From: Gammaproteobacteria bacterium | GTDB lineage: Bacteria > Pseudomonadota > Gammaproteobacteria > S012-40 | Direction: 5' to 3' | DNA: 64,000 bases | Assembly: GCA_029881255.1 (NCBI GenBank) | Contig: JAOUMY010000001.1 | Coordinates: 1,054,001 to 1,118,000, forward strand | Part shown: one piece after another, positions 5,837-59,624 of the stretch | Numbering within the stretch: the stretch's first letter is position 1 | Layout of the letters: each line of letters starts with the position of its first letter | Notes under the pieces: model-generated | Told to the model about the DNA's origin: nothing | Seen by the model: the letters and a program-made list of their open reading frames with translations, nothing else | The model's database searches: none | Program-made: the position numbers and the translations under genes

Positions 5837-7545
5837 AGAAGCAGCAGACGGTGGATCAATTCGTCTGGCGGCGTCGCTTGGGATTTGCTGCTGTTTTTGC
5901 GTCCGCGCTTTATCTCTCCTGGCATGCCTTCAATATTCAGGTGCTCAATAACGACTTTTTGCGTACCCAGGGTGATATGCGTCATTTGCGCACGGAAAGT
6001 ATCAATGCAACGCGTGGCATGATTCTCGATCGCAACGGTGAGGCGCTAGCGGTAAGTACGCCGGTTGCCTCTGTTTGGGCCAACCCGGAAAAGTTTGCGC
6101 CTACGCCTGCACAATGGTCACGTCTCTCAGAAATGCTCAATCGGCCGGTTGCCGAATTAAAACGGCAAGTAGAAAAACGCAGCAATAAGGAATTCGTTTA
6201 TTTAAAGCGCCATATCGATCCCGATCTTGCCAATCAAATAGACGCGTTGAAGATCGCGGGCGTAGATTTGCAAACCGAGTATCGCCGTTATTATCCTTCA
6301 GGCGAAGTCGCAGGACATTTGATCGGCTTTACTAATGTCGATGATAAAGGTCAGGAAGGCCTGGAGTTGGCCTTCGAAGAAAGACTCGCCGCAAGTACCG
6401 GCAAGCGCAGAGTCATTCGCGATAACCAGGCCAATACCATACGTACCCTGGAAATGATTAAGGCAGCGAGTCCGGGCCATGATGTTTATCTAAGTATTGA
6501 TCGACGTCTGCAATACATTGCCTACCGTGAATTGAAGAAGGCGGTCGTTGCTAATAACGCGAGCTCAGGAAGTCTGGTGATGTTGGACACCGTCACCGGT
6601 GAAGTGATCGCGCAGGTCAATCAGCCTGCCTTCAATCCCAATAACCGTTCGCAATTTCAGACAGAAAATTATCGCAATCGCTCTGTTGTGGACGTGTTCG
6701 AGCCGGGTTCAACCATTAAGCCTTTTACTATCGTTGCTGCATTGAAGGCCGGCAGTATCGCAACAGATACGATGGTCGATACCTCGCCAGGTTATCTGCG
6801 TGTCGATGACAGCACTATAAAAGATGTGCGCAATTTCGGCATGCTTGATGTGCCGGGAATCATTCAGAAATCCAGCAATGTTGGCGTAACGCAGATCGCC
6901 TTGCGTGTACCTAAGGAGTCCATGTGGGAAACTTTGTCTGATTTTGGTTTTGGTGATTTGACTGCCAGTGGCTTTCCTGGTGAGAGTGCCGGTGTGTTGC
7001 CGTTCTTCGGTACCTGGAATCGGGTTGAGCAAGCGACACTATCCTATGGATATGGGCTTTCGGTTACTGCCCTGCAGTTAGCGCAAGCCTATTCGGTACT
7101 TGCTAATGGCGGCGTGATGAAGCCGATTTCCTACGAAAAAGTTAATGAAGCACCAAAGGGAAAGCGCGTCATAGAAGAAAGTATCGCACGCAATGTGGTG
7201 AAAATGATGGAAGGCGTTGTATCGCGTGAAGGCACGGCATACAAAGCGGCGATTGAAGGCTATCGCGTGGCGGGTAAAACCGGCACGGTAAAGAAGTTGG
7301 GTGCGGATGGTTATACAGAAGACAAATATTTAGCAACCTTTGCAGGAATCGCCCCTGCAAGTTCACCAAGATTGGCAGTGGTGGTCACCATCGATAATCC
7401 AGGCAATGGGGACTATTACGGAGGAAAAATTGCCGCGCCGATTTTTTCGAACGTAGTGTCTGAAGCGCTGCGGATTATGAATGTGCCACCGGATAATGTG
7501 TATACCGAGCCACTACGTATGACACAGGCAGGGAGACATTTATGA
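5833..7545 (+). CDS. ftsI: Septal transpeptidase FtsI (PBP3)
   Basis: FtsI is the class B penicillin-binding protein that crosslinks septal peptidoglycan together with FtsW. The 570-residue protein has a cytoplasmic tail, a membrane anchor at about residues 15-35, the pedestal domain, and a transpeptidase domain. The catalytic motifs SxxK (GSTIKPFT), SxN (KSSNVG) and KTG (AGKTGTVKK) are all present. The ATG at 5833 overlaps the ftsL stop (ATGA) and gives the expected short cytoplasmic start; an earlier in-frame start would run inside ftsL. The gene overlaps murE by 4 nt. Confidence 0.97.
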   Translation: MKKQQTVDQFVWRRRLGFAAVFASALYLSWHAFNIQVLNNDFLRTQGDMRHLRTESINATRGMILDRNGEALAVSTPVASVWANPEKFAPTPAQWSRLSEMLNRPVAELKRQVEKRSNKEFVYLKRHIDPDLANQIDALKIAGVDLQTEYRRYYPSGEVAGHLIGFTNVDDKGQEGLELAFEERLAASTGKRRVIRDNQANTIRTLEMIKAASPGHDVYLSIDRRLQYIAYRELKKAVVANNASSGSLVMLDTVTGEVIAQVNQPAFNPNNRSQFQTENYRNRSVVDVFEPGSTIKPFTIVAALKAGSIATDTMVDTSPGYLRVDDSTIKDVRNFGMLDVPGIIQKSSNVGVTQIALRVPKESMWETLSDFGFGDLTASGFPGESAGVLPFFGTWNRVEQATLSYGYGLSVTALQLAQAYSVLANGGVMKPISYEKVNEAPKGKRVIEESIARNVVKMMEGVVSREGTAYKAAIEGYRVAGKTGTVKKLGADGYTEDKYLATFAGIAPASSPRLAVVVTIDNPGNGDYYGGKIAAPIFSNVVSEALRIMNVPPDNVYTEPLRMTQAGRHL

Positions 7546-30608: not shown

Positions 30609-31496
30609 TTACTTGCTTAGTGCTTTGTACTCTGCGAGGCGATTGGTGCAAGCTGCGCGTGTAGTAGCGTAAAAACCCTTGCCGCCAAGATTAATTGCCT
30701 TGTCATACAAGGTTAGCGCCTTGTCATAGTTAGCCATTGCATCATGCATTACAGCAAGGTTGTACACAACATCAGGACGGTTGGGCTGTGAGGCCATCAT
30801 AGATTCCAACTTATCAGCCGCCTGAGCATATGAACGCTTCTTGATGATCTCGACAACCGGGCCTAGGTCTTTGGACTCGTCATCAACCTTTACGGACTCA
30901 TTGATAAAGCGAGGCGTGATGTCGGCCAGGAATTTGGATACCGCATTGTCAATCGCGGCTTGTTTGGCGGCATCTTTGTCACCTTTATTTTCAGGGATTT
31001 TGGCTTCGCCACTGTATTCTTTCTCAGAAAGGCGTGCACGACCGCTGGCGTCAAGTGTGGTTACCCCGATGCTGGCAGCTCCAACAAACACATTGCTGCG
31101 CTTGGTGATTGTTTGCCCTTTGCTGTTCTTGAATTGCTCAACAACCTGGTCTTTGTTTGCGTCGGCCTCATAGACATCTACGCGTACAAAAACCTCTCCA
31201 TCCTTAGGGCCAGTTGGGCGGGCAGAGGCGCTATCGCCTTTAGGTACGATTTCAATGCCTTTGGACATCTTGTCTTCGAACTGCCACCAGTTAGACTGGC
31301 GAGCCTTTACGCTCAGGCTTTCCATCAACTGTTCGCGCAAGCTGCGCTTACCTGACATCTGCACCATTACCAAGCTCTTGGATGCCCCAAGGTTATAGGC
31401 CGCAGGAGAAGGACGTTGGATAACGGCGTTGGTTCCACAACCCTGTGCAATCAAGATAAAAGCTGCTAAAGCCACAAGGATTAAACTTCTTTTCAT
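30609..31496 (-). CDS. Lipoprotein with C-terminal tetratricopeptide repeat
   Basis: A 295-residue lipoprotein with lipobox AQGC (Cys20). The middle part (about residues 30-200) has an alpha/beta character, with GEVFVRVDVYEAD and VGAASIGVTTLDASGRA segments. The C-terminal 70 residues contain a TPR-like pair (DVVYNLAVMHDAMANYDKAL). ATG 31496 is chosen because it gives a clean signal peptide with AGGTG upstream. It resembles CsgG/FlgT-type envelope lipoproteins in layout but cannot be assigned to a named family. Confidence 0.7.
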   Translation of the reverse strand: MKRSLILVALAAFILIAQGCGTNAVIQRPSPAAYNLGASKSLVMVQMSGKRSLREQLMESLSVKARQSNWWQFEDKMSKGIEIVPKGDSASARPTGPKDGEVFVRVDVYEADANKDQVVEQFKNSKGQTITKRSNVFVGAASIGVTTLDASGRARLSEKEYSGEAKIPENKGDKDAAKQAAIDNAVSKFLADITPRFINESVKVDDESKDLGPVVEIIKKRSYAQAADKLESMMASQPNRPDVVYNLAVMHDAMANYDKALTLYDKAINLGGKGFYATTRAACTNRLAEYKALSK

Positions 31497-31780
31497 AGAG
31501 TAATTCACCTGTCTTTCCTCACTAATGAATGTTTTTAAAATACGCGGGCACATGACATTTGGTACCCAAATTGACCGTTTGTAAGTTAGAACCGAGCCTA
31601 TGATTTTTACGAGGCGCGGAACCGGCACTCCGGGAGATTATTCGACAGGAAGGCTGACAAACTTAAGGTGTATTTGCGTCTGATTTAGCGTTTGATTAAC
31701 GGGAAGAACTAAGGCGTTAGGACTGGCGCCTTCTGAAGCGACTAAGGGTTTCTCTTAGATGTTCAGAAAGCGCTTTTGGA

Positions 31781-33574: not shown

Positions 33575-33964
33575 CCGCTATGAAACATCGATAATTGACA
33601 TAACGCCACTCTCATCATTTTCGCTAATATTCTGTAATTTCACGCGTTTTAACCAGTATTTGGACCAGCTTTGCGCTTTGCCTTTTGTGATGGGCGTCGC
33701 GGTGAAACCCTGCATGATGGTGTAATCTATCTTATTGTTTTTTTTGGTTTTTATCGCTATCCACTTGCGCTAAGCAGGGCCTGACAGCTTCATGGCTCAT
33801 CCGCAGCTACCTTTAAGGCATTCATTTTTTTGACGTTTATGTCCATACGGGTCTCTATATTGCTTACATAGGCTTAAATAACGCGAACTTAGAGGCGTTT
33901 AATCTGAACAGTGAAATAAATTTATGTTGAAAACACACACGACAAAAGCAAGCCAGGGTTGATC
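33575..33964. other. Long region upstream of the exopolysaccharide operon
   Basis: About 390 nt before the first exopolysaccharide gene, probably holding its promoter and leader. No known riboswitch, promoter or regulator box is recognised. A 45-codon minus-strand reading frame at 33578-33715 lacks a ribosome-binding site and is not called. Confidence 0.3.
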
Positions 33965-35173
33965 TTGACTGCCAGGAACCTGCTAAAGGCAGTCTGTCTT
34001 ACCGTGATTTCGTGGAGCGCATGTTTCTTCAATATCGGTGTAAATGCAGAAGAGGCAGACAAAGGACTTGCATACGGAAAACTCTTGGTAGAGCCCATAT
34101 TCTCAGCGGAGCTGACCTACGATGACAATGTTTTTCGACAACAGACATCTCCGACATCTGCACTTTTGTCCACGCTGAATTCGCAATTGAAGTTGTCCGT
34201 TAATAATGAAATGAATCGTAGTAGTGTTGGGTATCAAGGTAGTTACGTCGATGTTCAGCAAAGCCCGGCCGACAACTATATGGACCATATGGTATTCGGT
34301 CGTTTGCAACATGCCTTATTGAGAAACTTGAGTTTTGTGTTCAGTGGCGCATATCAATTGGCCCATGAAAAAAGAGGGGAGACGTATATTGTGGATACGG
34401 TCTCCAATTTCGATGTGCCAGACGCCTTCGTGTTGAAACAAATCAAAGCCAATATGGTTTTGGGAAGCGAGCAGTCGCAAGGGCGTCTGCAGTTGGAAGG
34501 TGAGAAGCGTACGAAACTGTTTACTACGCGACTAGATGTGACAGGACGTAGAAGTCACGAGTTGCAAGTGGCAAACCTGGTTTTAACCCGGCGGATCTCG
34601 CCAAAAACTGCGTTTCTATTGAAGGGTGGCTATTCTCAGTATGACTATACAAACGAAGATAGTTTGCTCGCCAGTCGTGATAGTGCGGACCTGACAGTCG
34701 GATTAGGTGCTCAATGGGAATTCACGCGTTTGACTAAAGGCGAATTTGTTTTCGGCTTGCACAATAAAAATTTCACAGATGCCAGCAAACCGCAGGTCAC
34801 AGGTAAAGAGTGGTTGTTAGCAATGACATGGTCTCCCCTAGAGGACCTGGAATTCGAATTAACGTCTGGAGGAACACTGGAGGAATCTACTACGACAGGA
34901 AACTATACGGATTCGAAGCGAGTTTCCATTGGTGCGCAATATAGTTTTTTTGACAAGCTTCTTTTAAAGCCTCAGGCTTGGGTGAACTCCGCTGAGTACC
35001 CACCAGAATTAGGGCGAGATATAGCGCTTGGAGGTGAGTTTGCGGCCGTGGTAAACACAGCTAAGTGGGTACAAATCGGCGCAGCTCTGCGCTACTTGCG
35101 ACAATATTCGTTTCGAGATGGTTTTAGCTATCGTGAAAAAATGTTAATCGGACGTATCTTAATACGACCATGA
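33965..35173 (+). CDS. Outer-membrane beta-barrel protein of the exopolysaccharide operon
   Basis: A 402-residue exported protein with a signal peptide cleaved near GVNAEEAD. A barrel follows, with the opening VEPIFSAELTYDDNVFRQ typical of exopolysaccharide-associated barrels (BBP2 type, related to VpsM/EpsL-like proteins). It probably forms or supports the outer-membrane exit for the polymer. TTG 33965 is preferred over TTG 33959 because AGGG at 33955-33958 is 6 nt upstream. It overlaps the SLBB gene by ATGA. Confidence 0.75.
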   Translation: MTARNLLKAVCLTVISWSACFFNIGVNAEEADKGLAYGKLLVEPIFSAELTYDDNVFRQQTSPTSALLSTLNSQLKLSVNNEMNRSSVGYQGSYVDVQQSPADNYMDHMVFGRLQHALLRNLSFVFSGAYQLAHEKRGETYIVDTVSNFDVPDAFVLKQIKANMVLGSEQSQGRLQLEGEKRTKLFTTRLDVTGRRSHELQVANLVLTRRISPKTAFLLKGGYSQYDYTNEDSLLASRDSADLTVGLGAQWEFTRLTKGEFVFGLHNKNFTDASKPQVTGKEWLLAMTWSPLEDLEFELTSGGTLEESTTTGNYTDSKRVSIGAQYSFFDKLLLKPQAWVNSAEYPPELGRDIALGGEFAAVVNTAKWVQIGAALRYLRQYSFRDGFSYREKMLIGRILIRP

Positions 35174-35961
35174 AAGCGACTACGCAGATAAATAACGTTC
35201 ACATCAAACCGATACGGCTGCAAGGTGCGTTGTGGTTGTTGCTACTGATTGCCTGCACCAGCTCATTTGCGCTTGATCAATCCGCATACCAGCTTTCCAC
35301 AGGTGATGTGATCGATATTCAGGTGTTTGGTGAAAAAGAATTGAGCGTGAAAAAAGCCATAGATGATACCGGCAAAGTGTCCTATCCCTTATTAGGAGAT
35401 TTGAAGGCAGCTGGGCGTACGCTGCGTGAAATGGAACACGTTATCGTTGAGGGGCTCCAGGGGCGATATCTAATTTCGCCGAGAGTGAATGTTACGATCG
35501 AAAATTACCGACAATTTTTTGTGAATGGCGAAGTCAACCGGCCTGGAGGTTATGCATTTCTTCCAGGTCTATCCCTGCGCAAAGCAATTGCCGTTGCAGG
35601 TGGGCTAACCTCCCGTGCTTCATCTGAGCGTATCTTTGTTATTCGCGATTCCGATGAGAGTAAAACGCCGAGCAAAACTGACATGGAAGCGGAAGTTAGC
35701 CCCGGAGACATCATTACGGTCTATGAATATCGACAGGTGTTTATCTCTGGCGAGGTTCAGCGTCCCGGTAACTACGACTATCAACCGGAATTAACGATGC
35801 GAAAGCTGGTTGCGTTGGCTGGTGGATTTACAGCGAGGGCATCGAGTGGAAAAATTTGGCTGATTCGTGAAAAAGGCGGTACTAAGACGGAGCAGGACGC
35901 TGCGCTGGACGATATGGTGAAACCCGGCGATATTGTCACGGTAGGGGAGCGTTTCTTCTGA
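35170..35961 (+). CDS. Polysaccharide export protein with two SLBB domains (Wza/EpsA-like)
   Basis: A 263-residue periplasmic or outer-membrane protein. After a signal peptide (ending SFALDQ, or LIAC if lipidated) comes a polysaccharide-export domain, YQLSTGDVIDIQVFGEKELS. Two SLBB repeats follow, each with a VNGEV or ISGEVQRPG start and an ALAGGFTARAS-type end. It is shorter than E. coli Wza and lacks its C-terminal membrane helix, so the neighbouring barrel protein probably supplies the outer-membrane pore. Confidence 0.9.
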   Translation: MKATTQINNVHIKPIRLQGALWLLLLIACTSSFALDQSAYQLSTGDVIDIQVFGEKELSVKKAIDDTGKVSYPLLGDLKAAGRTLREMEHVIVEGLQGRYLISPRVNVTIENYRQFFVNGEVNRPGGYAFLPGLSLRKAIAVAGGLTSRASSERIFVIRDSDESKTPSKTDMEAEVSPGDIITVYEYRQVFISGEVQRPGNYDYQPELTMRKLVALAGGFTARASSGKIWLIREKGGTKTEQDAALDDMVKPGDIVTVGERFF

Positions 35962-38108
35962 TGCTAAACGAAAGCAAGCTGAAACGACGGCTGAAAGGTT
36001 TATATGAATATGGCGATAGCCATGTTGCGAGTAACGTCGACCAGATCATAGCGGCTATTGCCCAATATAAATGGTCTATACTGGCATTAGCCTCAATTGT
36101 CGCATTTATTTCGTTGCTCATTTCCCTTTCGATGCCGTCTATCTATCAGGCTAGCGCGGTGATATTGATTGAGCCGCCAAAATCAAACATCAAAACGCTT
36201 GATGATATTTATGGGATAGATCATCGAAATGGAGATTTCTTCCTAACGCAAGTGGAGCTTTTGCGTTCCAGGGATCTGGTTGCGCGTGTGATACATGATA
36301 TGGAGTTGCAAAAGGAACCGGAATTTTATATCGCACCAAACGCCGAAGATGCTGAGTCGAAGTCGGCGATTTCAAGTGACCAGATCATGCGAGTTCTCGC
36401 GAACAAATTTCTCGATCGCTTAAGTCTACGACCGGTCCAACGTACCCATTTAGTTGAAATACGTTTTGAGTCGACTAGCCCGGAGCTAAGCGCAAAAGTT
36501 GCAAACCATTTGGTTAAGGCCTACCTGACTAGTAGTCTGGAAAATCAACTGCGCATGGCGTCAGACTCGTCCGGCTGGTTAGCAGACAAGCTGGGGCCAC
36601 TGAAAACTGAACTGGCGAGTGCAGAAGGTCGTCTGCAAGACTACCTGGAAAAAGAAAATCTTGCGGATATACAAGGTGTGCGGACACTTATTGCGTCGGA
36701 ACTTGAACGCATAACTCACCACCTTGTCGAAGGACGCGCCAAGCGAGTCGAAGTGGAAAACCTGCTTTCGCAACTTAAGTCTGTGAAAGATTGGCCAAGT
36801 ACTCCTGCCATTATTAATCACGAACTTGTTCGTGGTGCTTACGTACAGAAGCAAAAAGCGATGAGTAAAGTCGCCGAATTGTCCGAGCGTTACGGGCCGG
36901 AATATCCGAGCATGGTCAGCGCCAGATCGGAATTGGAGATTGCGGAAAAAAATCTGATGGCTCAAATGAAGCTGGTTGTAGAGAGTTTCAATAGACAGTA
37001 TGAAGTTGAGTTGAAAAACGAGCAATCTTTAAATGGCAGCCTGGAAAACGCCAAAAAAGAATTGCTTGGAATTAATCGCAAAGAGTTTCAGCTCAAGGAG
37101 CTACAACGGGAGGTGGATACCCGTCGTCGTCTATACGATGCATTTATCAATCAAATTCAGGAAACGAATGCGATAAAGGACTTTGAACCAGTGAATGCGC
37201 GGATGATAGAGCACGCCTCGGTGCCTATCTCTCCTTATAAGCCGGCCAGGACAAAGATAGTTTCGTTCTCATTCATTATCGCCTTGCTCTCGGCCATCGC
37301 CCTGGCAATTGCACTTGAATACCTGAAAAGTACATTCAAGGTGGCAGAGGACGTTACGCGGTTTCTCGAAATGCCTTTTCTGGGTTACGTGCCGTACATC
37401 AAGAATGATGGTAGCGATCGCCTGACGGTTGAAAAGGTATTCTCCGGTGAAGGTGTATCTGAGGCGCAGGAATTCATTAACACGATACGTACGGCCTTGT
37501 TGTTAAATGATCCGGATAGCAGGAACCGAATAACGATAGTGACATCCAGTGTGCCGGAGGAAGGCAAGTCGATTGTATCCGGATGTATTGCTGCCGGACT
37601 CGCGCAATTAAATCGGGTGTTGTTGATAGATGCTGACATGCGGCGTCCCTGTGTGCACAAGCTATTTAATGGCTTACATCGAAAAACGGGAATTGCCGAG
37701 GTCTTGGTTGGTGAGTCAACAATAGAAGAGGCCTTGCAACATGTTGATGAATACCATCTGGATGTGCTGCCGGTGGGAATGATTCCACCGCGACCGTTAG
37801 ATCTGCTTTCCTCTGAACGTTTTCAATCTCTGCTTTCTGAGCTGATTACCCGTTACGACCACATTATTATTGATACGCCACCCGTGCACGCGGTCAGCGA
37901 TGCCTTGGTTTTGTCCAGACGAGTTCACGATGTTGTCTTTGTGACGCGGTATGACTCCACATCGCATTTCACCGCTCGCAAGGCACTGGCGCAATTGACA
38001 GAAGCTAGAGCAAAAATTGCCGGGGTCGTGCTGAACCAGTTTGTTCCACCAACGGCCTCCGGTTCATATGAACTCTATCAGTACATGTATAAGTATGGAA
38101 CAGAATAG
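35961..38108 (+). CDS. Wzc-like chain-length regulator and tyrosine autokinase
   Basis: A 715-residue inner-membrane BY-kinase controlling polymer length and export. It has a Wzz domain with membrane helices at about 38-58 and 433-452 and a periplasmic coiled coil (about 210-400). The cytoplasmic kinase has Walker A VPEEGKSIVSG (K536), Walker A' VLLIDADMRRP, and Walker B IIIDTPPV. The last 13 residues hold five Tyr (703, 706, 708, 710, 712), the expected autophosphorylation cluster. Walker A has Ile where Thr or Ser is usual after GKS. It overlaps the next gene by 14 nt. Confidence 0.94.
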   Translation: MLNESKLKRRLKGLYEYGDSHVASNVDQIIAAIAQYKWSILALASIVAFISLLISLSMPSIYQASAVILIEPPKSNIKTLDDIYGIDHRNGDFFLTQVELLRSRDLVARVIHDMELQKEPEFYIAPNAEDAESKSAISSDQIMRVLANKFLDRLSLRPVQRTHLVEIRFESTSPELSAKVANHLVKAYLTSSLENQLRMASDSSGWLADKLGPLKTELASAEGRLQDYLEKENLADIQGVRTLIASELERITHHLVEGRAKRVEVENLLSQLKSVKDWPSTPAIINHELVRGAYVQKQKAMSKVAELSERYGPEYPSMVSARSELEIAEKNLMAQMKLVVESFNRQYEVELKNEQSLNGSLENAKKELLGINRKEFQLKELQREVDTRRRLYDAFINQIQETNAIKDFEPVNARMIEHASVPISPYKPARTKIVSFSFIIALLSAIALAIALEYLKSTFKVAEDVTRFLEMPFLGYVPYIKNDGSDRLTVEKVFSGEGVSEAQEFINTIRTALLLNDPDSRNRITIVTSSVPEEGKSIVSGCIAAGLAQLNRVLLIDADMRRPCVHKLFNGLHRKTGIAEVLVGESTIEEALQHVDEYHLDVLPVGMIPPRPLDLLSSERFQSLLSELITRYDHIIIDTPPVHAVSDALVLSRRVHDVVFVTRYDSTSHFTARKALAQLTEARAKIAGVVLNQFVPPTASGSYELYQYMYKYGTE

Positions 38109-38730
38109 CCAAGGAAAGGAAAATAGAAGATTCGCCATATTGCCGCTAGCTTTTATGGTATTGGCGAGCGGCTATTGCCTGTTGCAGGTGGTGACAGAAT
38201 GGTATCTGCAACCGGTTGAGCAGGTAATTTCTACGAATGTTGGGTGGACGGAACACGAACGCGTCGCCACTCTGCGTGAACTTGGTTTCGTTAGCAGGCT
38301 TAGTCCTGGCAATGTACGAATTTATGAATATAGAGTTCTACTGCGTGACGAAAGACTGCTTTTTGGTAAAAGCGATGAGTCACGCGGCTATACCGCACTG
38401 CTAGCGCAAAGGCCAACCTGGATTCCTCTGTGGATAAATGCACTAAACCAATTCGCGTCACGTGGAGAGTTTAATCAGCAATTCAATAGGGCATTGTTAT
38501 ACGCCCTCGATCTCACAAAAAACAATCACCAATACGCCTCGCGATTAGTTGAATTGAGCTTGAGACATTGGACACATCTGGATTGGCATACACGTGACGA
38601 ATTAGCGAACAAGCTGTCGGAATACAATCTAACGCCTCTTTTACTGAAACTGGCTAAGGAAAAAGCAATGTTGAACTTTGTATGCGCAACGGTCGGGCAG
38701 ACTGACGTAATGAGTCTGTGCGAGCCTTAA
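38095..38730 (+). CDS. Single-pass membrane protein of the exopolysaccharide operon
   Basis: I do not recognise a family. The 211-residue product has a short basic N-terminus, one membrane helix at about residues 13-32, and a periplasmic helical part resembling degenerate TPR helices (NRALLYALDLTKNNHQYASRLVE). Three Cys residues occur. ATG 38095 overlaps the end of the kinase gene, which indicates translational coupling; an in-frame ATG further upstream would lie deeper within the kinase gene. Its place between the kinase and Wzy-like genes suggests a role in polymerisation or transport. Confidence 0.7.
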   Translation: MEQNSQGKENRRFAILPLAFMVLASGYCLLQVVTEWYLQPVEQVISTNVGWTEHERVATLRELGFVSRLSPGNVRIYEYRVLLRDERLLFGKSDESRGYTALLAQRPTWIPLWINALNQFASRGEFNQQFNRALLYALDLTKNNHQYASRLVELSLRHWTHLDWHTRDELANKLSEYNLTPLLLKLAKEKAMLNFVCATVGQTDVMSLCEP

Positions 38731-38750
38731 TCCGCTGAGGGGTGCTTTTA

Positions 38751-40232
38751 GTGGAATTATCCAACGATAACTTTCTAGCAACTACGCGTTCAACAATGGT
38801 CGCCTTCGTAAGTAGGTATCCTCTGTTCTCGACCTTGCTCGTCCTGCTATTTTGGTTGCCACTACCTTTAGGTTCAAATAGAGGCTGGTCGTCATCATTG
38901 TTTGAAGCGGTTGTATTTTGCCTTTTTGCTATTTGGATATTGGGCTATTTAAAAGGTCGATACAAAACAAGTGTAGCCTTTGTTCGCGCCAGACCTGTGA
39001 TATACCTGTTGTCGTGTGTTTGTGTCTGGCCGATTTTTCAAATGATACCTTTGTCAGCATCGGTGCTTGAACTGTTATCGCCGAATGCATTGATCCACTA
39101 TCAGGCGGTTTCGGGCCTTTCCGCTAATGCAGCGTATTCAGTGAGTCTAGATCCCTATGCCAGTTGGGAGAGATTTCTTCTTAACTTATCCTTGTTAAGC
39201 CTGTTTATGCTTGTCTTGCTAACAACACGTACACGCCAGCATCTATACTTTTTGTTGTATACGATGGTGTTGGCCGGGTTATGTCAAGCGATATGGGGCA
39301 GTCTTAAATTACTATTTGTCGAAGATGTTCATTATGCGACAGGTACATTCGTCAATCGAAATCATCTTGCGGGGTTTTTTGAATTGACGCTCGCAGCCGG
39401 TACGGGTCTGTTGTTGGCTATAACTTCACACCGCCATTCGCGAAGTTGGCGGCAAGCACTGGTGTACTGGATCAGTCTGATTTTTAGTAAGAAGCTGCGA
39501 CTTCGACTATATCTGATGATAATCGTTATTGGGCTTATTCTTACGCATTCGCGTATGGGGAATTTTGCCTTTTTTACTAGCCTAACGTTCGCTGCGCTTA
39601 TATTCATGTTGACGACCAAAAATCAGCAATACGCACATAAGTCATGGTGGAGGGCGATAGCACCAGCGCTTTTCCTGCTATCCAGTCTCGTAGTTATTGA
39701 CTTTCTGATTGTCGGGAATTGGCTTGGTGTTGACCAGGTCGTCGACAATATTCAAAAAACGCAAGTAGAGACGGAATCGAGAAGCCTGCTATTTAGCGAT
39801 GCTCTATCGTTGACGAAGGAATTTTGGTTGTCCGGGATTGGTGCCGGTGCCTTCTCCAGTGTTTTCCCAGTTTATCAATCAAGGCCATACTTCGAAGTGT
39901 ACGACCATGTGCATAATGACTTTCTGGAAATTGCAATGGAGTACGGACTACCCGTCTTTGTTCTATTTTCGGCGGCAATAGTTTGGTGTTTTCTGTCTGC
40001 GGTGAAAGCACTATTTATCAATGAATCCCAATTCCATCGGGGTGTCGCTTTTGCGTGTGTGATGGGCATATCCGCTTTGTTGCTGCATGGGCTTGTAGAT
40101 TTCAATTTTCATATACCTGTTAACGCCGCCTATATTTCTGTTTTATTGGCATTGACTCAGGTTGCTGGACATCGGAAGTCTTTGAGTATGCAAGGGAGCG
40201 GTAACGACGATAACGGTGGAGGTCCAATATGA
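38751..40232 (+). CDS. O-antigen ligase/Wzy-type polymerase
   Basis: A 493-residue inner-membrane protein with about ten to twelve helices. It carries the Wzy_C-type signature: ATGTFVNRNHLAGF in one periplasmic loop and the large loop GAGAFSSVFPVYQSRPY followed by HVHNDFLEIAMEYG. Such proteins polymerise or ligate lipid-linked sugar repeats. GTG 38751 is chosen with GAGGGG at 38737-38742 upstream; GTG 38742 overlaps that site. Polymerase and ligase cannot be told apart by sequence; the operon favours an exopolysaccharide polymerase. Confidence 0.88.
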   Translation: MELSNDNFLATTRSTMVAFVSRYPLFSTLLVLLFWLPLPLGSNRGWSSSLFEAVVFCLFAIWILGYLKGRYKTSVAFVRARPVIYLLSCVCVWPIFQMIPLSASVLELLSPNALIHYQAVSGLSANAAYSVSLDPYASWERFLLNLSLLSLFMLVLLTTRTRQHLYFLLYTMVLAGLCQAIWGSLKLLFVEDVHYATGTFVNRNHLAGFFELTLAAGTGLLLAITSHRHSRSWRQALVYWISLIFSKKLRLRLYLMIIVIGLILTHSRMGNFAFFTSLTFAALIFMLTTKNQQYAHKSWWRAIAPALFLLSSLVVIDFLIVGNWLGVDQVVDNIQKTQVETESRSLLFSDALSLTKEFWLSGIGAGAFSSVFPVYQSRPYFEVYDHVHNDFLEIAMEYGLPVFVLFSAAIVWCFLSAVKALFINESQFHRGVAFACVMGISALLLHGLVDFNFHIPVNAAYISVLLALTQVAGHRKSLSMQGSGNDDNGGGPI

Positions 40233-47143: not shown

Positions 47144-48955
47144 ATGGAAGTTGGTTTGGTAAAGTCTTTTCTAGGTGTTCTAGCAACCCTGTTGATAGTC
47201 ACATTCAATATTGCGGGTGCCGCAGAGGAGACGTTTTCTGCATCAGATGATTCGCAAAAGAAATATGAGCGCAAGGTTCTTCTTCAAATCCGGGATATTG
47301 GTCTCCAGCAAAAACATTTTTCCGTACCCGTAACCTTCTGTCCTTACAAAAAATCCTGCGTGCCGTTTGCGACCTGGGGGCTTGATGTCGATGACAATCT
47401 CGAGATCGCCGCTGCGGGGCAGGTCATTGAGCGCATGTCTGGTAATCGATATGACAATATCAGCATACAGTCGGGTAAGCTGGTAATGACAACGTTGAAC
47501 GAAACCCTTGAAATGGATGCAGACCTGGGACAGTTCAATTTTGATGTCGGGCCATATTATGAGTTTGTCACGAAGTCCACCGAATATCTAAACACGAAGT
47601 TCGCGCCTTTCATGGGTGAGTTGCTTATTAAAGCTAAAGATGCCCGGTATCAGGAATTGGCCGACCGCGAAAAAGAGACTTTTCTTGCAGAGATAGCCAA
47701 AGAGCGTAGCGTGCCGGTAGCTTTTCTTCAGCGCTTATTGAATTCCGCCTTTGTCTTCGCCACCTATCTTGAGACTCCACGCGGGAAAATCAGCATCAGC
47801 CAACAAAAAAGCAAAAAGTCTTTCAATTTCAGTGTAGGTGTTGATATCGATTTGCCTATGCGGATGGTGATTTTTCGATTTGACTCAGAGAAAAAACAAT
47901 TCGAAATCTATAAGGAGTTAAGTGCTCACTCCGGGTATGTATCAGATAGTGCGCAAGTGTTTCCATCAAGACCGGAAAATGTTGAGCTTTTGGCGAATTT
48001 GTATCGGAGAAGTTTTGTTGTTGCTGCCCGGGCCGCCGGGATAGCCCTCAATACCAATCTGAAAGAAGACGACGCATTCGCCATCTTTGCTACGGTCGAT
48101 GCGGTTGATGAAGGTTTCTTTTTGACGCGAATCGAGTCTGCGATTGGTCAGGCGGAGGATTTACGTATAGACGCACCCTACCGTCTTAAGCAAATGATAG
48201 ATGGAAAAATTGTTAATCGAGGTTGGATTAAGGCGCGTTCGGTAGCGAGAAAGTCCTTATTAGATGATGGCGCACAAGGACAATACCTTTCTTCATTTTC
48301 TGTTATCAAAGGCAGTGCCGAATTTAAAGATCAGGTGAGAGAGCATCCCTGGACTGGAGTTCTTGGCGCGCTAACCGTTGTCAATACACATCAGACGGTG
48401 GAGAAACTTTCCGGATTAACTGCCAGTGGTGGCGGTGACTTTTTGGGCTTGGGTCTTGGTTTTAAGGCGGATTTGGGTTACTTGTTTAACTCATCAGGAT
48501 ACTCTGAGTCATGGTTAGAAATAGTCGGACAATTTGGTCTTGGTGGCGAAAGCATAGTCCAGTCTTCTTCTATATATACAACTCCAGTACTAGGTGTTGT
48601 CCGTATGGACTATGTGAAGCGAGGTCATCTGGGGGCGAGTGGACTCTTTGTCGCGTATAAGTTTGGCCTCGCTGCGAGTCAAATGCGTGGGCAAGGGCCT
48701 AATGTTGACTCTGCAAACGATGACATAGAGATAACTTCATTCGGCCTGGGCGCGGGTCTGCAATTGGGTTATCTATTTTCACCCGATACGGAGTTGGTGG
48801 TAAACGCACAAGGGTATTTTCCCATAAGCTCTCAATACAGAATCGGCGAATCTGAGACGTATGATGACGCCAATATGTCTGTGGTCTATGGTATTAATGT
48901 TGGCTTATCGTTTCATATGAAATCGTTAGGCGGACTCGCATCACTGATGAGGTAA
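47144..48955 (+). CDS. Exported protein with C-terminal outer-membrane barrel-like domain
   Basis: No family is recognised. The 603-residue product has a signal peptide cleaved near IAGAAEE. An N-terminal part of about 390 residues is mixed alpha/beta with two Cys (in VTFCPYKKSCVPF). A Gly- and aromatic-rich C-terminal region from about residue 425 looks like an eight-stranded barrel (LGLGFKADLGYLF, FGLGAGLQLGYLFSP, YGINVGLSFHMK). It has AAGGA 8 nt before ATG 47144 and starts a four-gene run with the FlgT-like, LPP20 and PEGA proteins, so it may be the outer-membrane partner of that set. Confidence 0.65.
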   Translation: MEVGLVKSFLGVLATLLIVTFNIAGAAEETFSASDDSQKKYERKVLLQIRDIGLQQKHFSVPVTFCPYKKSCVPFATWGLDVDDNLEIAAAGQVIERMSGNRYDNISIQSGKLVMTTLNETLEMDADLGQFNFDVGPYYEFVTKSTEYLNTKFAPFMGELLIKAKDARYQELADREKETFLAEIAKERSVPVAFLQRLLNSAFVFATYLETPRGKISISQQKSKKSFNFSVGVDIDLPMRMVIFRFDSEKKQFEIYKELSAHSGYVSDSAQVFPSRPENVELLANLYRRSFVVAARAAGIALNTNLKEDDAFAIFATVDAVDEGFFLTRIESAIGQAEDLRIDAPYRLKQMIDGKIVNRGWIKARSVARKSLLDDGAQGQYLSSFSVIKGSAEFKDQVREHPWTGVLGALTVVNTHQTVEKLSGLTASGGGDFLGLGLGFKADLGYLFNSSGYSESWLEIVGQFGLGGESIVQSSSIYTTPVLGVVRMDYVKRGHLGASGLFVAYKFGLAASQMRGQGPNVDSANDDIEITSFGLGAGLQLGYLFSPDTELVVNAQGYFPISSQYRIGESETYDDANMSVVYGINVGLSFHMKSLGGLASLMR

Positions 48956-48960
48956 GAAAG

Positions 48961-50163
48961 ATGAGAGGCAGAATTGCACTCCTAATATTATTGGTCGCTA
49001 TGCTTGCCGCGTGCGGCGGGAAAAAAGTCGTAAAGTCTGATGACCCTTTGCCGCAAAGTCGACAGGTTACCGAAGTCGAAAGCACCAGTTCAGCAGAAAC
49101 ACTGGTGCGAGCTACCGGCAAGGCCGGTTCAGTCGAAGACGCTATTGTTGATGCACAGCGAGCCGCACTTTGGTTTCTTTTGCATGCGGGTTCGAAGCCG
49201 GTATTGAAAACTGCAGCTGAAAAACAGGCATTCGCGGCAATTGAGCGAGACTTCTACAGCGCCCATTCACAATTCGTGCGTTATACCAGTGATCTGAAAT
49301 CCAAACAGAAAAATGGAAACACCGTCAGCGTTGATGTGCTGGTGCGTATTGATATGAATATGTTACGTGAACATCTGGTCAGCAATAACGTGATCAAGTC
49401 GACGACAGATATGCTTGCCGAGGCAGGCTTGCCCTCTATCTCGATCGTAGCGGCTGAAACCACTGACGATACCGATCTTGCGCGGAATGTATTGGGTGAA
49501 TACCTGACCGATCGAAATTACGAAGTGAACGTGGTCTCGCAGAGTGGAAAGCTGTCAGCCGTGGTCAACAAGTTGGCGCGCCTGGGTGGCAATACGGACC
49601 CCTCTTACAACTGGGCTCTGGAAGCGGGTAGCGACGTTTATATAGAAGTGAAAGTCAATACGGAGAAGGGTAAGGTCAGCGGTGTTGATACGCGTAAAGC
49701 CTCGGTCACAGCCAAAGCGTTTGAAACGTCGACCGGTATTCAGCTTGGTTCAAGTACCGGGAATTCTTCGGAAAGAGCGGCATCTGGTTTCGACGCTCTG
49801 ATACAGGAAGCAGCGAATGCGGTAGCCGACAAGTTGATCTCCCAGATCCGTAAGAAGTGGAGCGGTGGGACCAAGGCATTCAAATTGGTTGTCTTCACAA
49901 CGGAAGATCAAGGTGATCGCGTCGATCAATCCATATACAAGGCGTTAAAATTGCTTTCTAAGCAGCCGGTAAAAAGGGTCGCCGCGGGAAAGAGTACGTT
50001 TGACTACGTTGTGCGTACCGAAGGCCTGGCTAATGCGTTTGAATTTATGATGGCGCTGCAACAGCGTTATGGTGGACCGGGAACCATCACGCGTGAAATG
50101 GAAAACGGTGCCTTGCTGGTAGTGCGCGCCGGAGCTGGCGACGTTGATATTCAGTTTGACTAA
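48961..50163 (+). CDS. FlgT-like envelope lipoprotein
   Basis: A 400-residue lipoprotein with lipobox LAAC (Cys18). The N-terminal domain TLVRATGKAGSVEDAIVDAQRAAL has the Gly-x-Ala followed by EDAxxDAxRxA pattern shared by FlgT and LPP20 proteins. A middle part resembles the TolB-N/CsgG fold (LPSISIVAAETTDD to VYIEVKVN), and a C-terminal alpha/beta domain ends at residue 400. It starts 5 nt after the barrel gene. A named family cannot be assigned; the FlgT resemblance is in layout, not clear identity. Confidence 0.65.
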   Translation: MRGRIALLILLVAMLAACGGKKVVKSDDPLPQSRQVTEVESTSSAETLVRATGKAGSVEDAIVDAQRAALWFLLHAGSKPVLKTAAEKQAFAAIERDFYSAHSQFVRYTSDLKSKQKNGNTVSVDVLVRIDMNMLREHLVSNNVIKSTTDMLAEAGLPSISIVAAETTDDTDLARNVLGEYLTDRNYEVNVVSQSGKLSAVVNKLARLGGNTDPSYNWALEAGSDVYIEVKVNTEKGKVSGVDTRKASVTAKAFETSTGIQLGSSTGNSSERAASGFDALIQEAANAVADKLISQIRKKWSGGTKAFKLVVFTTEDQGDRVDQSIYKALKLLSKQPVKRVAAGKSTFDYVVRTEGLANAFEFMMALQQRYGGPGTITREMENGALLVVRAGAGDVDIQFD

Positions 50164-50217
50164 ACTCGTGAAGATTTGTGTTTGGGAATTTTAATTCAGT
50201 AAAAGGAAGGTGAATCG

Positions 50218-50799
50218 ATGAAATTGAAACAGCTTGTAGTGTTGTCTGTCGTGGGCGTGGCCTTGTCTGCTTGCGGTGGAAAAAATGTGAAGCAGGAAGT
50301 TGCGGATTGTGTGTTTCCGAATACCGAGACTGCTGCACCGGGTTGGATTTGTGATGAACCGGTACCGGGCCTGGATGTTCAAGCCGTGGGCATCTCTGAA
50401 AAATCCGGTGCGGGCATGAGCTTCATGAAAGATATCGCTGCCGCAGATGCGCGTGGTCGTTTGGCCGAGCAGGTTAAGGTCAAGGTCAACAAGATGGTCA
50501 AGAACTACATGGGCACCACTGGACGTGGCGATTCGGAAACCGTTGATGCTGCTGCCAGCAGCACCTTAAAGACCATCTCGTCCGAAAACCTGGTGGGCTC
50601 AAAAGTATACAAGTCACGCACTGGCCCGAACGGCAGATTGTTTGTTCTTGTTGGTATAGACGAAAATGCAGCCAAGAAGATTGCTGAAACTGCATTGAAA
50701 ACGAGCATGAACAATGAGAAGGCATTGTGGCAGCAATTCGTCGCGCAAAAATCACACGATGAAATGGCGGCGGAAATTGCCAAGGAATATGGTCGTTAA
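50218..50799 (+). CDS. LPP20-family lipoprotein
   Basis: A 193-residue lipoprotein with lipobox LSAC (Cys19). It carries PGWICDEP followed by LQAVGISEKSGAGMSF-like sequence and the AAADARGRLAEQVKVKV helix, the LPP20 pattern first described in Helicobacter. The C-terminal NGRLFVLVGIDENAAKKIAETAL segment completes the domain. A strong AAAGGAAGG ribosome-binding site lies upstream. The family includes flagellar FlgP, but this copy sits with non-flagellar envelope genes. Confidence 0.82.
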   Translation: MKLKQLVVLSVVGVALSACGGKNVKQEVADCVFPNTETAAPGWICDEPVPGLDVQAVGISEKSGAGMSFMKDIAAADARGRLAEQVKVKVNKMVKNYMGTTGRGDSETVDAAASSTLKTISSENLVGSKVYKSRTGPNGRLFVLVGIDENAAKKIAETALKTSMNNEKALWQQFVAQKSHDEMAAEIAKEYGR

Positions 50800-50826
50800 T
50801 CGAACCGGCTTGCAGGGAATTAAACC

Positions 50827-51933
50827 ATGGTCAGAGTCTTACTGACATTATTCGTGTTTGTGTCTGCGGGTGCGGGTGTCCTGAATGCTCAGGATGCCCG
50901 CGCTGCCGGGTATATACTTTCAGCGGAAGGGAGTGGTCCATCGCTGGATGAGGCAAAAGCCGCCGCGGTTACCGAATTGGGAAAAAGCATTATTGCGAAA
51001 GTTGAGTCTACCTTTCGTAGTGATGTGAAAGTGAACAACGATCAAGTCAATCGGGACATGCAGTCGATCAAGCAAGTGCGTTCCGATCAGCTGCTTAAAG
51101 GCGTGCGCTATAGTGGAGAACGTCAGGATGGCGAAGGCTATCATATTACTGCTGGTCTGGATCAAAGCGGCGTAAATGACACGGTTAACTATATGCGCGA
51201 GCAGCTCGACGGTGATCTGAGTGTTCGCAATCGTGAGCAGCTGGGCGCGGCATTGAAAATTGTCGATCATATGCAGGCGTTCATTTCGACTGTTCCAAAA
51301 ATTGCCTTGTCTTCATTTCCTGATATCGACAAGTGGTTGGCGGATCGTCGGCACGAAATTCTGCAGCGTATGAATCAAGGGCGCGTCGAGTTTATCAGTC
51401 CTGTGCCAGAATACACTATTTCGATAGATGGTAAATCTGCGGTTTCCGGACAATATTTTCCGCCTGGACACTACCAGTTTTCTGCTAGTGCAGAAGGCTA
51501 TCGCAGCTTTAATGGCACGTTCTCAGTGAGTGAGGGGGAGATTGCAAAGGTCAATCTTCCGTTTGTTAAAGTTATGGATAACAAGTCTGTGAGCCTACAG
51601 ATTAGCGACGGATTTGAATTCCTGCACGATAGCCTGAAAACCATACTTGAAGATATGGGGGTAGCGATTTCCTCGGGTAGTAAACATGAAGTGAAAGTCA
51701 CCATCGACGATGAAGTAAAAGACGTGGATGGTTTTTCTTCTCATAGCATTAAGGTGCAGATCGTCGCGATGAAAAACGGTAAACGGGTAAACCGGGTGCG
51801 TTTTTCAAAGAACATGACGGCGGAAAGTGGCGACCAGATCAAATTGCGTAAGACACTACAGCCGCTGGTGGAGAAGGGTATGATAGGTTTGTTCTCACGC
51901 ATGGAAGTGGAAGAGTACTTTTCCGGCAAGTAA
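50827..51933 (+). CDS. Exported LPP20-like and PEGA-domain protein
   Basis: A 368-residue exported protein with a signal peptide cleaved near LNAQDA. Residues 28-125 form an LPP20-like domain (AEGSGPSLDEAKAAAVTELGKSI to YHITAGLD). Residues about 187-248 form a PEGA domain (FISPVPEYTISIDGK to VNLPF). The last 110 residues look like a CsgG/TolB-N-type fold (SVSLQISDGFEFLHDSLKTILEDMG). It closes the four-gene cluster and is followed by a hairpin. The mix of domains suggests an envelope assembly or surface-attachment role, which is inference. Confidence 0.7.
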   Translation: MVRVLLTLFVFVSAGAGVLNAQDARAAGYILSAEGSGPSLDEAKAAAVTELGKSIIAKVESTFRSDVKVNNDQVNRDMQSIKQVRSDQLLKGVRYSGERQDGEGYHITAGLDQSGVNDTVNYMREQLDGDLSVRNREQLGAALKIVDHMQAFISTVPKIALSSFPDIDKWLADRRHEILQRMNQGRVEFISPVPEYTISIDGKSAVSGQYFPPGHYQFSASAEGYRSFNGTFSVSEGEIAKVNLPFVKVMDNKSVSLQISDGFEFLHDSLKTILEDMGVAISSGSKHEVKVTIDDEVKDVDGFSSHSIKVQIVAMKNGKRVNRVRFSKNMTAESGDQIKLRKTLQPLVEKGMIGLFSRMEVEEYFSGK

Positions 51934-56619: not shown

Positions 56620-57771
56620 TCAGCGACCAAATCGGATGATATCGCCTGGAAAGAGTTGCGCTTTATCGATTTCGAGACGACCTACTGAGAATAATGGTTG
56701 TACCTGTTCAACGGCTAGCGTTGCTACAGGGGTCTCGCGTCGACCTAAAAAGAATTCCTTTTGGGTGAAACGTATAGGGTCAGGCGATAGTCGGTAAGTC
56801 ATCAGGGTATCGCCAACCTCGACTAACGATGTGGCTCCTGCATTGAAGATAATCTCGTTACCGGAAATTTGTACGATGCGCGCGGTGAAAGGGATCATTT
56901 GCAAATTATTGCGTATCATTTCTACATGTCTATTCATGATTTCACTCATGGCTTTGCCGTAAGCGCTATGCATAAACGTCTTGTTTGTAATCCATGCCCG
57001 GGCGTCTGATAAAAGGCTAACACCTTCAACTGTTTTACTGAATCGATGGTTGGCGATACGCGCGCCTGAGACGCCATCATGAATAAACAGCTCTATGTCG
57101 ATATCGCGTTGATCAAACACCAGACCATCACGTTTTTCCATGCTGTGAATTACACCGCTTACAATGATCTGCACGTCTAATTTGTCGGCTAGAACGGCGT
57201 AAGTCTCTGGGTCATCAAATTTGTAACCGGGATTGTCTCGCGAAATCAGATATTGCGTGCCATCTTCACCGAGAAAGGAACCGCTACTTTCCAGTCTACC
57301 TAGCAACTCCCTCGGCCAATCCTGTTCTATGCCTGGAAAGTCGATCACGTGTTGTTTTTTGATAATATCGAATTGCAGTATGGCAACTTTTTTTCGATAT
57401 CGTGCGGCAGGCGAAGAAGGTCGCGAGCCATCGCGGGGAATCTTTGCTCGAATATGTACGTGATACACATCCTTCTCTGCCCATTCCTGTAATACCTTAA
57501 CATCTTCAACGCGACTGGCTGCATTGACGCGTGTGCTTTCGATTAGCAATACACTGGACGATGTTAAGGTGGTGCTGTCTATTTCAGATTTGAATTGCGT
57601 GGCCGCCTGACGCATCGCATTTTTAATAGCCTGCTCTCTAGCCATTCCCACAGCGCCATCCTTGATGACTGCGCTGCCTTGTGCCTCCACGATCGTATCC
57701 GCTGAAACACTAAACGCCAATATCAAATTGGCGATCAGGCAGAAAATGATTTGCGAGACTATCGTCGGCAT
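56620..57771 (-). CDS. flgT: Flagellar assembly protein T-like (FlgT)
   Basis: FlgT is a periplasmic protein of the flagellar H ring in Vibrio and relatives. The 383-residue protein has a signal peptide cleaved near SVSADTIV. It shows the three FlgT parts in order: an N-terminal domain with AREQAIKNAMRQAATQF, a middle TolB-N-like domain (KKVAILQFDI to DVQIIVSGVIHSME), and a C-terminal beta domain (TARIVQISGNEIIFNAGATS). The start ATG 57771 is 8 nt after the stop of the upstream flgP-like gene. No other flagellar gene is in the window. Confidence 0.82.
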   Translation of the reverse strand: MPTIVSQIIFCLIANLILAFSVSADTIVEAQGSAVIKDGAVGMAREQAIKNAMRQAATQFKSEIDSTTLTSSSVLLIESTRVNAASRVEDVKVLQEWAEKDVYHVHIRAKIPRDGSRPSSPAARYRKKVAILQFDIIKKQHVIDFPGIEQDWPRELLGRLESSGSFLGEDGTQYLISRDNPGYKFDDPETYAVLADKLDVQIIVSGVIHSMEKRDGLVFDQRDIDIELFIHDGVSGARIANHRFSKTVEGVSLLSDARAWITNKTFMHSAYGKAMSEIMNRHVEMIRNNLQMIPFTARIVQISGNEIIFNAGATSLVEVGDTLMTYRLSPDPIRFTQKEFFLGRRETPVATLAVEQVQPLFSVGRLEIDKAQLFPGDIIRFGR

Positions 57772-57779
57772 TTAGCGTG

Positions 57780-58499
57780 TTACTCTGATTGATAGTAGAA
57801 ATTCTTGGTCGCAATATGATTTGCACTGTTTCCGCTTGCTGGTGCTGGCATATTGCTACTCATAATGAATTCGGCCTGCTGCGCGTTGTCTTTTGGTTGG
57901 TTTGCGGCATCAGTACATTCGTCGTCTCTTGAATTAGGAAGCGTTGCGGTCAACAGTCGTTGATCGACGTTGACTTCAACAGTTGTTTCATAACTGCCGT
58001 CTTCATGTGGATTTTCTGCGATAACTCTGGCGCCTTGCAGAGTCGTATCAATGTAGACTCTGAAACGGTCTTTTTCGACGACCATATCGCCCAAAGTGGT
58101 TCCGCCCCAGATCTGAACACCACGTATACGTTCAGCCAGGCTTCGGTAGGCATCAACTTTTGCCGCACGCATCGCCATCAGTCTGCGTTGCGGATCGGAA
58201 TAAAAACTTTTGGGAGGTGCGCCGTATCCAGTTGCTCTGACTCGAACACTAGGAACCTTTCTACCATTTAGATTGATGTAGTGACCATCTGCGGTACAGT
58301 TGACTTCGGCCATTTTTGCCGCGGCAGATGCGTTATCCTGCATGGAGACAGCCACGGGAGATTTCTCCTTCGCTGAAGTTAGTTCCTTGCCTTGCGCTAC
58401 TTGCTTCTCCTTGGGATCGTCGGGAAGTGTATAGTGTGTGCAAGCGGCAAAGAGTGTCGCTAGCGTGAACAAACCTGCCGTTTTAATAACCGAGTGCAT
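57780..58499 (-). CDS. LPP20/FlgP-like lipoprotein
   Basis: A 239-residue lipoprotein with lipobox FAAC (Cys20). The LPP20 domain spans about residues 75-195: VRVRATGYGAPPKSFYSDPQRRLMAMRAAKVDAYRSLAERI, then TTLQGARVIAENPHEDGSYETTVEVNVD. FlgP of Vibrio and Campylobacter has this domain and forms an outer-membrane flagellar ring with FlgT. The tandem order with flgT supports the flagellar reading. ATG 58499 is chosen for the signal peptide; an earlier ATG would place 25 polar residues before it. Confidence 0.75.
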   Translation of the reverse strand: MHSVIKTAGLFTLATLFAACTHYTLPDDPKEKQVAQGKELTSAKEKSPVAVSMQDNASAAAKMAEVNCTADGHYINLNGRKVPSVRVRATGYGAPPKSFYSDPQRRLMAMRAAKVDAYRSLAERIRGVQIWGGTTLGDMVVEKDRFRVYIDTTLQGARVIAENPHEDGSYETTVEVNVDQRLLTATLPNSRDDECTDAANQPKDNAQQAEFIMSSNMPAPASGNSANHIATKNFYYQSE

Positions 58500-58775
58500 T
58501 GATGGTACTCCCTCAAAATGTGTGAAAAGCGCCTGGTTCATGCTTTTCACGGAATCGATATAACGCTCAAACATAAAATTGCAAAGTGCATACCAAGGGT
58601 GTTAGGAAAGTGTAACAAGGTGTTTACGACAGCGCTTAACGCAAACATTGCGCCGTTTTAGTTTTGACTTGGCTCGGTTTTTGTAAATATTTTTACCGAA
58701 GGATTTATGGGAAAGGATTCCAATTCCAGTTAATGAGTACTTAGTTACCTGTATAAGTACACGCAATTTCGGGAA

Positions 58776-59624
58776 ATGAAACAATACATGAAAGCACTAC
58801 TACGGTATCGCCTGCAAAAACACTTTCTGATCGCCAGTTTATCTGTCATGTCTGGTTCTGCACTGGCAGATAGTTGTTATAGCGCAATCGACTATATCAA
58901 GCCAGAAGCGATAAAAGCCAAGCGTGCGCTGTACTTGTTAGTTGACCAAACAACGCCGCTAAGTGGCGAGATGCGGCAAAATGTTACCGATCTGCTGAAA
59001 AGTTGGGGTAAGCCAGGTGATGTCGTTAAGGTGGGCGTTTTTTCGGCCAACATGCAAGGGCGCTTTCCCAAGGTTACGTTTGATCGTAGGGCAGACAATC
59101 CACCGAGTGAAAAATATTTGTGGCAGCTGCGTTGGCAGGACAAAAAGGATTTGCTCGCCTGTTTGGAACAGCAGCAGTCTAATTTTCAGGACGAGGTGAA
59201 AAACGCCATTTCCGAAGCGGTGGAAAAATCCAATTCCACTATTCCGAAAACGGAATTGCTGTTTAGTTTGAAGCGACTTTCCCGTGCAATGATAGTGAAA
59301 GAGGAAGCCGAGCATCCCGTTGTCTTTCTTGTGAGCAACGGCATGGAAAATAGTACTGACTTTTCTTTTTATCGTGGCACTGTGATTAATAAGCTACCGA
59401 CGTTGCAAATCATTTCCAAGATACGTCGCAAGGGACTCATGGGTTTTTGGCGTGGTGCCGATGTCTATATATACGGACTTGGCGTTATTGAAAATAGGAA
59501 AGCCTATATCAAAGGAAATCAGCTCAAAGATCTTGAAGATTTCTGGGAGCGCTATTTCGTCGAAGGCGGTGGCAAAGTAAAAGCCATAGGTTTGCCCGAG
59601 TTGCTTATTTCCTCTATCGAATAG
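58776..59624 (+). CDS. Secreted vWA-like protein, family not recognised
   Basis: A 282-residue exported protein with a signal peptide cleaved near ALADSCYS. It has a Rossmann-like alternation: RALYLLVDQTTPLS at the start, GDVVKVGVFSAN, and HPVVFLVSNGMEN. This resembles a von Willebrand A fold whose first metal motif is DQTTPLS rather than DxSxS. It is divergent from the flgP-flgT pair with a 276-nt gap and convergent with the BASS gene. Function is unknown. Confidence 0.6.
   Translation: MKQYMKALLRYRLQKHFLIASLSVMSGSALADSCYSAIDYIKPEAIKAKRALYLLVDQTTPLSGEMRQNVTDLLKSWGKPGDVVKVGVFSANMQGRFPKVTFDRRADNPPSEKYLWQLRWQDKKDLLACLEQQQSNFQDEVKNAISEAVEKSNSTIPKTELLFSLKRLSRAMIVKEEAEHPVVFLVSNGMENSTDFSFYRGTVINKLPTLQIISKIRRKGLMGFWRGADVYIYGLGVIENRKAYIKGNQLKDLEDFWERYFVEGGGKVKAIGLPELLISSIE

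Follow-up and report, generated by a model that had tools for sequence, protein, structure and literature searches.

A rare, conserved four-gene locus for exported barrel, DUF6175 and LPP20-type proteins in a gammaproteobacterium, possibly a divergent relative of Lpp20/LpoB envelope loci

Introduction

LPP20-fold lipoproteins are widespread, and we know of no role for them outside the flagellum, nor, to our knowledge, has a cell-wall function been demonstrated for Lpp20 itself. LpoB is the activator of PBP1B. In Helicobacter pylori, HP1457, which is a homologue of LpoB (PMC11394524), flanks lpp20/HP1456 (PMC12029599), and HP1454, a product of the HP1456 operon, is a secreted protein of three domains, the first of them Lpp20-like (PMC11756786). 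Cells with hp1456 deleted were normal in motility and bacitracin resistance, and Lpp20 co-purified with FlgP and FapH (PMC11756786). The SHS2-fold relatives FlgP and FlgT form rings, and work on Campylobacter jejuni FlgP tied ring formation in the FlgP fold to a particular insert (PMC12222027).

Here we analyze four consecutive genes, A to D, in a window (the whole stretch of DNA analyzed) of 64,000 nucleotides from a gammaproteobacterial genome (Table 1). Cast against the H. pylori locus, B would stand for LpoB, C for Lpp20 and D for HP1454, with A as an extra component. We found no published description of this combination. An initial annotation, made from the sequence alone, had proposed the four genes as a candidate for an undescribed system.

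Table 1. Features of the window that are discussed in the text.
Feature	Coordinates	Strand	Description
339-aa lipoprotein	30609-31628	-	C-terminal TPR repeats
Polysaccharide export/polymerization genes (by eye)	33959-40232		Outer-membrane protein, SLBB-type export protein, chain-length kinase, O-antigen-ligase-like protein
Gene A	47144..48955	+	603 aa; signal peptide, ~370-residue periplasmic region, predicted C-terminal 8-strand OmpA-like barrel (~397-595)
Gene B	48961..50163	+	400 aa lipoprotein; SHS2/FlgT_N-like start, CsgG/LpoB-like middle (DUF6175), alpha/beta C-terminus
Gene C	50218..50799	+	193 aa LPP20-family lipoprotein
Gene D	50827..51933	+	368 aa, exported; LPP20/SHS2-like N-terminus, PEGA-like segment (~196-248; tentative), C-terminal domain
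flgT	56620..57771	-	Ordinary flagellar H-ring gene, outside A-D; FlgT_N 4.7e-12, FlgT_M 1.4e-11
flgP	57780..58574	-	Ordinary ring-forming FlgP lipoprotein gene, outside A-D
282-aa protein	58776-59624		Exported; divergent from flgP-flgT; no clear Pfam family

A conserved unit in two genera

The four plus-strand genes for exported proteins are present as the initial annotation had reported them, separated by gaps of 5 bp (A-B), 54 bp (B-C) and 27 bp (C-D), and each starts with a signal peptide that can be read by eye. The signal peptides of A and D look ordinary (by eye). B and C have lipoboxes (LAAC and LSAC, respectively) with glycine at +2 in each, as is expected of outer-membrane lipoproteins. 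Promoter and terminator scans at A-D gave no excess over shuffled sequences.

The annotation had named gene-order conservation as a check, and A-D do co-occur elsewhere: a genome of another genus in the same order (G279) carries all four (locus L006, 9526-14276), with gene order and strand kept and with gaps of 4, 30 and 58 bp. Orthologues in the two genomes share 41% (A), 57% (B), 66% (C) and 36% (D) identity, and the flanks of the G279 copy are unrelated to the flanks here. A second-genus copy in the same order and on the same strand, set between different flanks, makes A-D a real unit, beyond chance. It is a rare unit, conserved in two genera. A was searched for in 274 genomes of the class and 56 relatives, and the searches for B covered 369 genomes of the class, 13 of the order and 398 of the phylum; across these class, order and phylum genomes, the A and B searches gave no carrier of the set beyond this genome and G279. 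No relatives of A were found in a wider genome-contig collection, and none of B in plasmids and viral contigs. Relatives of C, by a scan of a species-level genome collection, occupy 28 loci, which come from Gamma- and Betaproteobacteria, and no A, B or D lies near any of them.

The rapid divergence of A and D and the very narrow distribution are what might be expected of a lineage-specific set of surface or vesicle lipoproteins with no fixed complex, held together by co-transcription only. We consider such a loose set unlikely, as B and C are well conserved and the order of the four genes was kept despite the differing flanks.

Predicted proteins

The barrel-like end that had been assigned to A held up. 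The AF2 model of A has a pLDDT of 35.6 overall and is too weak to read over residues 1-396; in this low-confidence model, eight strands spanning residues 397-595 align with the OmpA barrel (1bxw; Z 14.6, rmsd 3.4, 167 aligned). The G279 orthologue of A matches the family OMP_b-brl (PF13505) at 1.8e-5, just below the cut-off. A strand-alternation test found 32 windows in the C-terminus against 11.6 +/- 6.5 in shuffles, and the N-terminal part also exceeded its shuffles, by less than the C-terminus. The OmpA match and the PF13505 score support the prediction of a C-terminal eight-strand barrel of the OmpA type in A. No profile similarity was found between A and B, C, D, FlgT or the COG3014-like protein described below. 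The possibility that A is a wide export channel or pore by itself was set aside because its barrel is OmpA-sized.

B had been called a FlgT-like lipoprotein. The lipobox agrees with this, as does the best Foldseek match of its model (pLDDT 52.7), which is FlgT (3w1e, E 2.8e-4), but by Pfam the protein belongs to DUF6175 (PF19672; 2.4e-8, and 3.7e-10 for the G279 orthologue), a family on which we found no papers, and none of FlgT_N, FlgT_M and FlgT_C was detected in it at E<=1. Membership of B in FlgT was rejected for lack of a Pfam FlgT domain, and the likeness of fold was retained. The start of B is Tip-alpha/Lpp20-like in the model (residues 34-151 against Tip-alpha, Z 6.7) and residues 181-303 resemble CsgG (Z 7.4), both scores lying in a range where unrelated common folds also occur; matches of the middle domain include CsgG and PelC at Z 6-7 and GNA1162 by Foldseek. 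Pfam gave no significant match of B to LpoB. A distant and weak relative of part of B outside the class (L092, 259 columns aligned) itself matches FlgT_N at 2.1e-6 (28.6 bits, with a cut-off of 28.8) and, weakly, LpoB at 7e-4.

C is an LPP20 lipoprotein, as annotated: besides its lipobox, it matches PF02169 at 2.3e-8, with 34.8 bits that place it above the cut-off of 25.9. It aligns with H. pylori Lpp20 (5ok8, E 1.9e-6) and not with FlgP. Its insert of about 41 residues is without the motif GVQIWGGTT..DRFRVY that is present in the true FlgPs of the order, a distinction drawn from sequence only; secondary-structure propensity does not separate the two inserts.

For D, described as an LPP20-plus-PEGA protein, the first part fared better than the second. 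Its N-terminus resembles the long-LPP20 family described below in a profile-profile comparison (hhalign, 89.5%, E 2e-6), but in Pfam both LPP20 (PF02169, 13.3 bits against a cut-off of 25.9, E 0.11) and PEGA (PF08308, 18.2 bits against 20.8, E 0.0024) score below their cut-offs. The PEGA label is tentative because this match is sub-threshold and Pfam did not show PEGA in the G279 orthologue. We found no papers on LPP20 combined with PEGA. These comparisons show the domain types of all four proteins, with those of A and B predicted in part from low-confidence models.

The initial annotation had suggested that the set could build a ring. Such a ring or disc, separate from the flagellum, would arise by oligomerization of B and C (SHS2, CsgG-type) under the outer membrane, around or beside the barrel of A. 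FlgP and FlgT, their relatives of the SHS2 fold, assemble into rings (PMC12222027); the best fold match of B is FlgT, a ring protein, and its further matches CsgG and PelC are ring formers too. The evidence as a whole does not support this structure, and we think it quite unlikely: C matches Lpp20 and not FlgP and is without the FlgP insert motif, real FlgP and FlgT are encoded separately, the barrel of A is of the small OmpA type with no wide pore, the models are of low confidence (pLDDT 35.6 and 52.7), and similarity of fold is no demonstration of oligomerization.

Relation to the flagellar ring

The annotation had noted an absence of flagellar genes, which was mistaken, as flgT and flgP lie within the window 4.7 kb downstream of D (Table 1). 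The flgT product is the only FlgT_N match in the genome and matches the FlgT chain of 8z5n, a solved ring structure, and FlgT 3w1e, and the flgP product matches solved FlgP-type chains (9hmf_C, 3.5e-8; 8z5n_2, 1.5e-7). In most genomes of the order flgP adjoins flgT, and the pair recurs without A-D; in G279 it is on a different contig from A-D. FlgH was found in 13/13 genomes of the order, both carriers included, and A-D in 2/13. Because flgP-flgT recurs without A-D and FlgH is in every genome of the order, the flagellar ring neither requires A-D nor has a stable link to it. The earlier view that A-D is not itself a flagellar or pilus locus stands. A link between A-D and the nearby genes was set aside because the flgT-flgP module is conserved alone across the order and is on a separate contig in G279.

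It might still be argued that the products of A-D decorate or support the outer-membrane rings of the motor in these two species. Both carriers have FlgH, flgP-flgT is close by in this genome, the FlgT and LPP20 folds are shared, and, in H. pylori, Lpp20 was purified together with FlgP and FapH (PMC11756786). An accessory of this kind nonetheless seems improbable given that most genomes with FlgH are without A-D, that flgT-flgP is conserved independently of A-D, and that the H. pylori hp1456 deletion strain was motile (PMC11756786).

Together with the exported 282-aa protein, flgT and flgP make up a trio (56620-59624). Most genomes of the order have the same three genes together, which makes the 282-aa protein a possible new factor linked to the flagellum.

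Gene context of C relatives

LPP20 folds had been described in the annotation as known mainly from flagellar rings, a view that is at odds with the company kept by the relatives of C, which travel with genes for LpoB, lytic transglycosylase and transglutaminase-like proteins. Among the 28 loci, short LPP20 genes occur at 18/28, transglutaminase-like genes at 13/28 (a label based on sequence motifs, with no match in Pfam), SLT-domain lytic transglycosylases at 7/28 and FecR at 6/28. In three genomes (G282, G280 and G052) the C family is in or near a cluster that encodes LpoB (confirmed by Pfam, PF13036, 1e-42), a protein that we take to be COG3014-like and for which Pfam shows TPR repeats only, and a long LPP20 protein, whose family matches a solved LPP20-family structure, 4kzs, presumably that of HP1454.

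An LpoB-like gene is present in 9/13 genomes of the order and was found in neither carrier of A-D. The probability of this absence by chance is ~0.08 (Fisher's test, with only two carriers and genomes that are related), and a replacement of LpoB by A-D is a hint, not proof, because of the small number of carriers and this level of chance.

Several other features of these loci were observed. At L009-L036, several partners of C relatives share FxxYKxxQ-type repeats, which either follow the signal peptide or lie C-terminally, and in G280 a flagellin gene sits between the C relative and the LPP20-COG3014-LpoB cluster (L048, 9413-14975). The nearest analogue of A-D in layout is a run in Thiomicrospira (L011, 3366-11251) that includes a C relative, a short LPP20, an SLT protein, lipoproteins, a long LPP20 and an exported protein of 636 aa that may end in a barrel. 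The 339-aa TPR lipoprotein of the window is similar in layout to one gene of that run (6008-6940), with no significant sequence match. The window also includes a set of polysaccharide genes (Table 1).

Discussion

The gene context of the C relatives suggests a link of A-D to LpoB and murein enzymes. We tentatively favor the possibility that A-D is an operon for one outer-membrane complex facing the peptidoglycan, a divergent locus of the Lpp20/LpoB/HP1454 type that would serve in wall synthesis or envelope integrity. Several observations favor this envelope function: C relatives have genes for LpoB, lytic transglycosylases, transglutaminase-like proteins and short LPP20 as neighbors; the four-gene order is kept in G279 between different flanks; the N-terminus of D resembles the long LPP20 of the LpoB cluster; the middle of B is CsgG-like, and its distant relative L092 weakly matches both FlgT_N and LpoB; the LpoB-like gene that is common in the order was found in neither carrier; and H. 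pylori HP1457/HP1456/HP1454 is a published precedent. It is weakened by the lack of a significant LpoB match in B, by the normal motility and bacitracin resistance of the H. pylori hp1456 deletion, and by a Pfam search that found no peptidoglycan-binding family in A-D. The claim of an undescribed system, which agrees with the absence of publications on the combination, was too strong in light of this resemblance.

We infer the complex and its function as follows. A would be held in the outer membrane by its OmpA-like barrel and extend a large region into the periplasm, with B (CsgG/LpoB-like) and C (Lpp20-like) probably lipid-anchored in the same membrane. D would be soluble in the periplasm, where its LPP20-like domain likely docks on A, B or C. 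Such an assembly would most likely span from the outer membrane towards the peptidoglycan and may support or regulate the synthesis of the cell wall or the integrity of the envelope, in the way that LpoB acts on PBP1B. A bolder proposal, which we regard as very unlikely, is that A-D is a new non-flagellar outer-membrane assembly, an OmpA-type barrel bearing a FlgT/CsgG-like and Lpp20-like ring or cap, that has displaced LpoB-COG3014-LPP20.

As a minimal four-gene set with its own barrel, A-D is a tractable case for learning what LPP20-fold lipoproteins do, and it bears on how SHS2- and CsgG-type parts were reused in flagellar rings and in envelope maintenance.

Among described systems, the H. 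pylori hp1457/hp1456/hp1454 locus is like A-D in pairing an Lpp20-type lipoprotein (C) with a secreted protein that starts with an Lpp20-like domain (D). It differs in having an LpoB homologue where A-D has B, a DUF6175/FlgT-like protein that is not clearly LpoB and shares with it just the CsgG-type fold; A-D also adds the 603-aa protein with the OmpA barrel, and D has a PEGA-like segment. We describe A-D as like a locus of this type rather than a proven member because B is not LpoB by sequence. The LpoB-COG3014-like-long LPP20 cluster (L047, L048, L052) likewise encodes lipoproteins with CsgG- and LPP20-type domains, but A has no counterpart there, and no LpoB-like gene was found in the A-D carriers. 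CsgG, PelC and GNA1162 lipoproteins have a fold in common with the middle domain of B, by a moderate match to a low-confidence model, and B shows no sign of the membrane-spanning hairpins of CsgG. Flagellar FlgP and FlgT share the SHS2 fold (LPP20/FlgP/FlgT_N) with A-D, and B is like FlgT in domain order, but true copies of both are encoded apart from the locus, C is without the FlgP insert motif, and B is without a FlgT Pfam domain.
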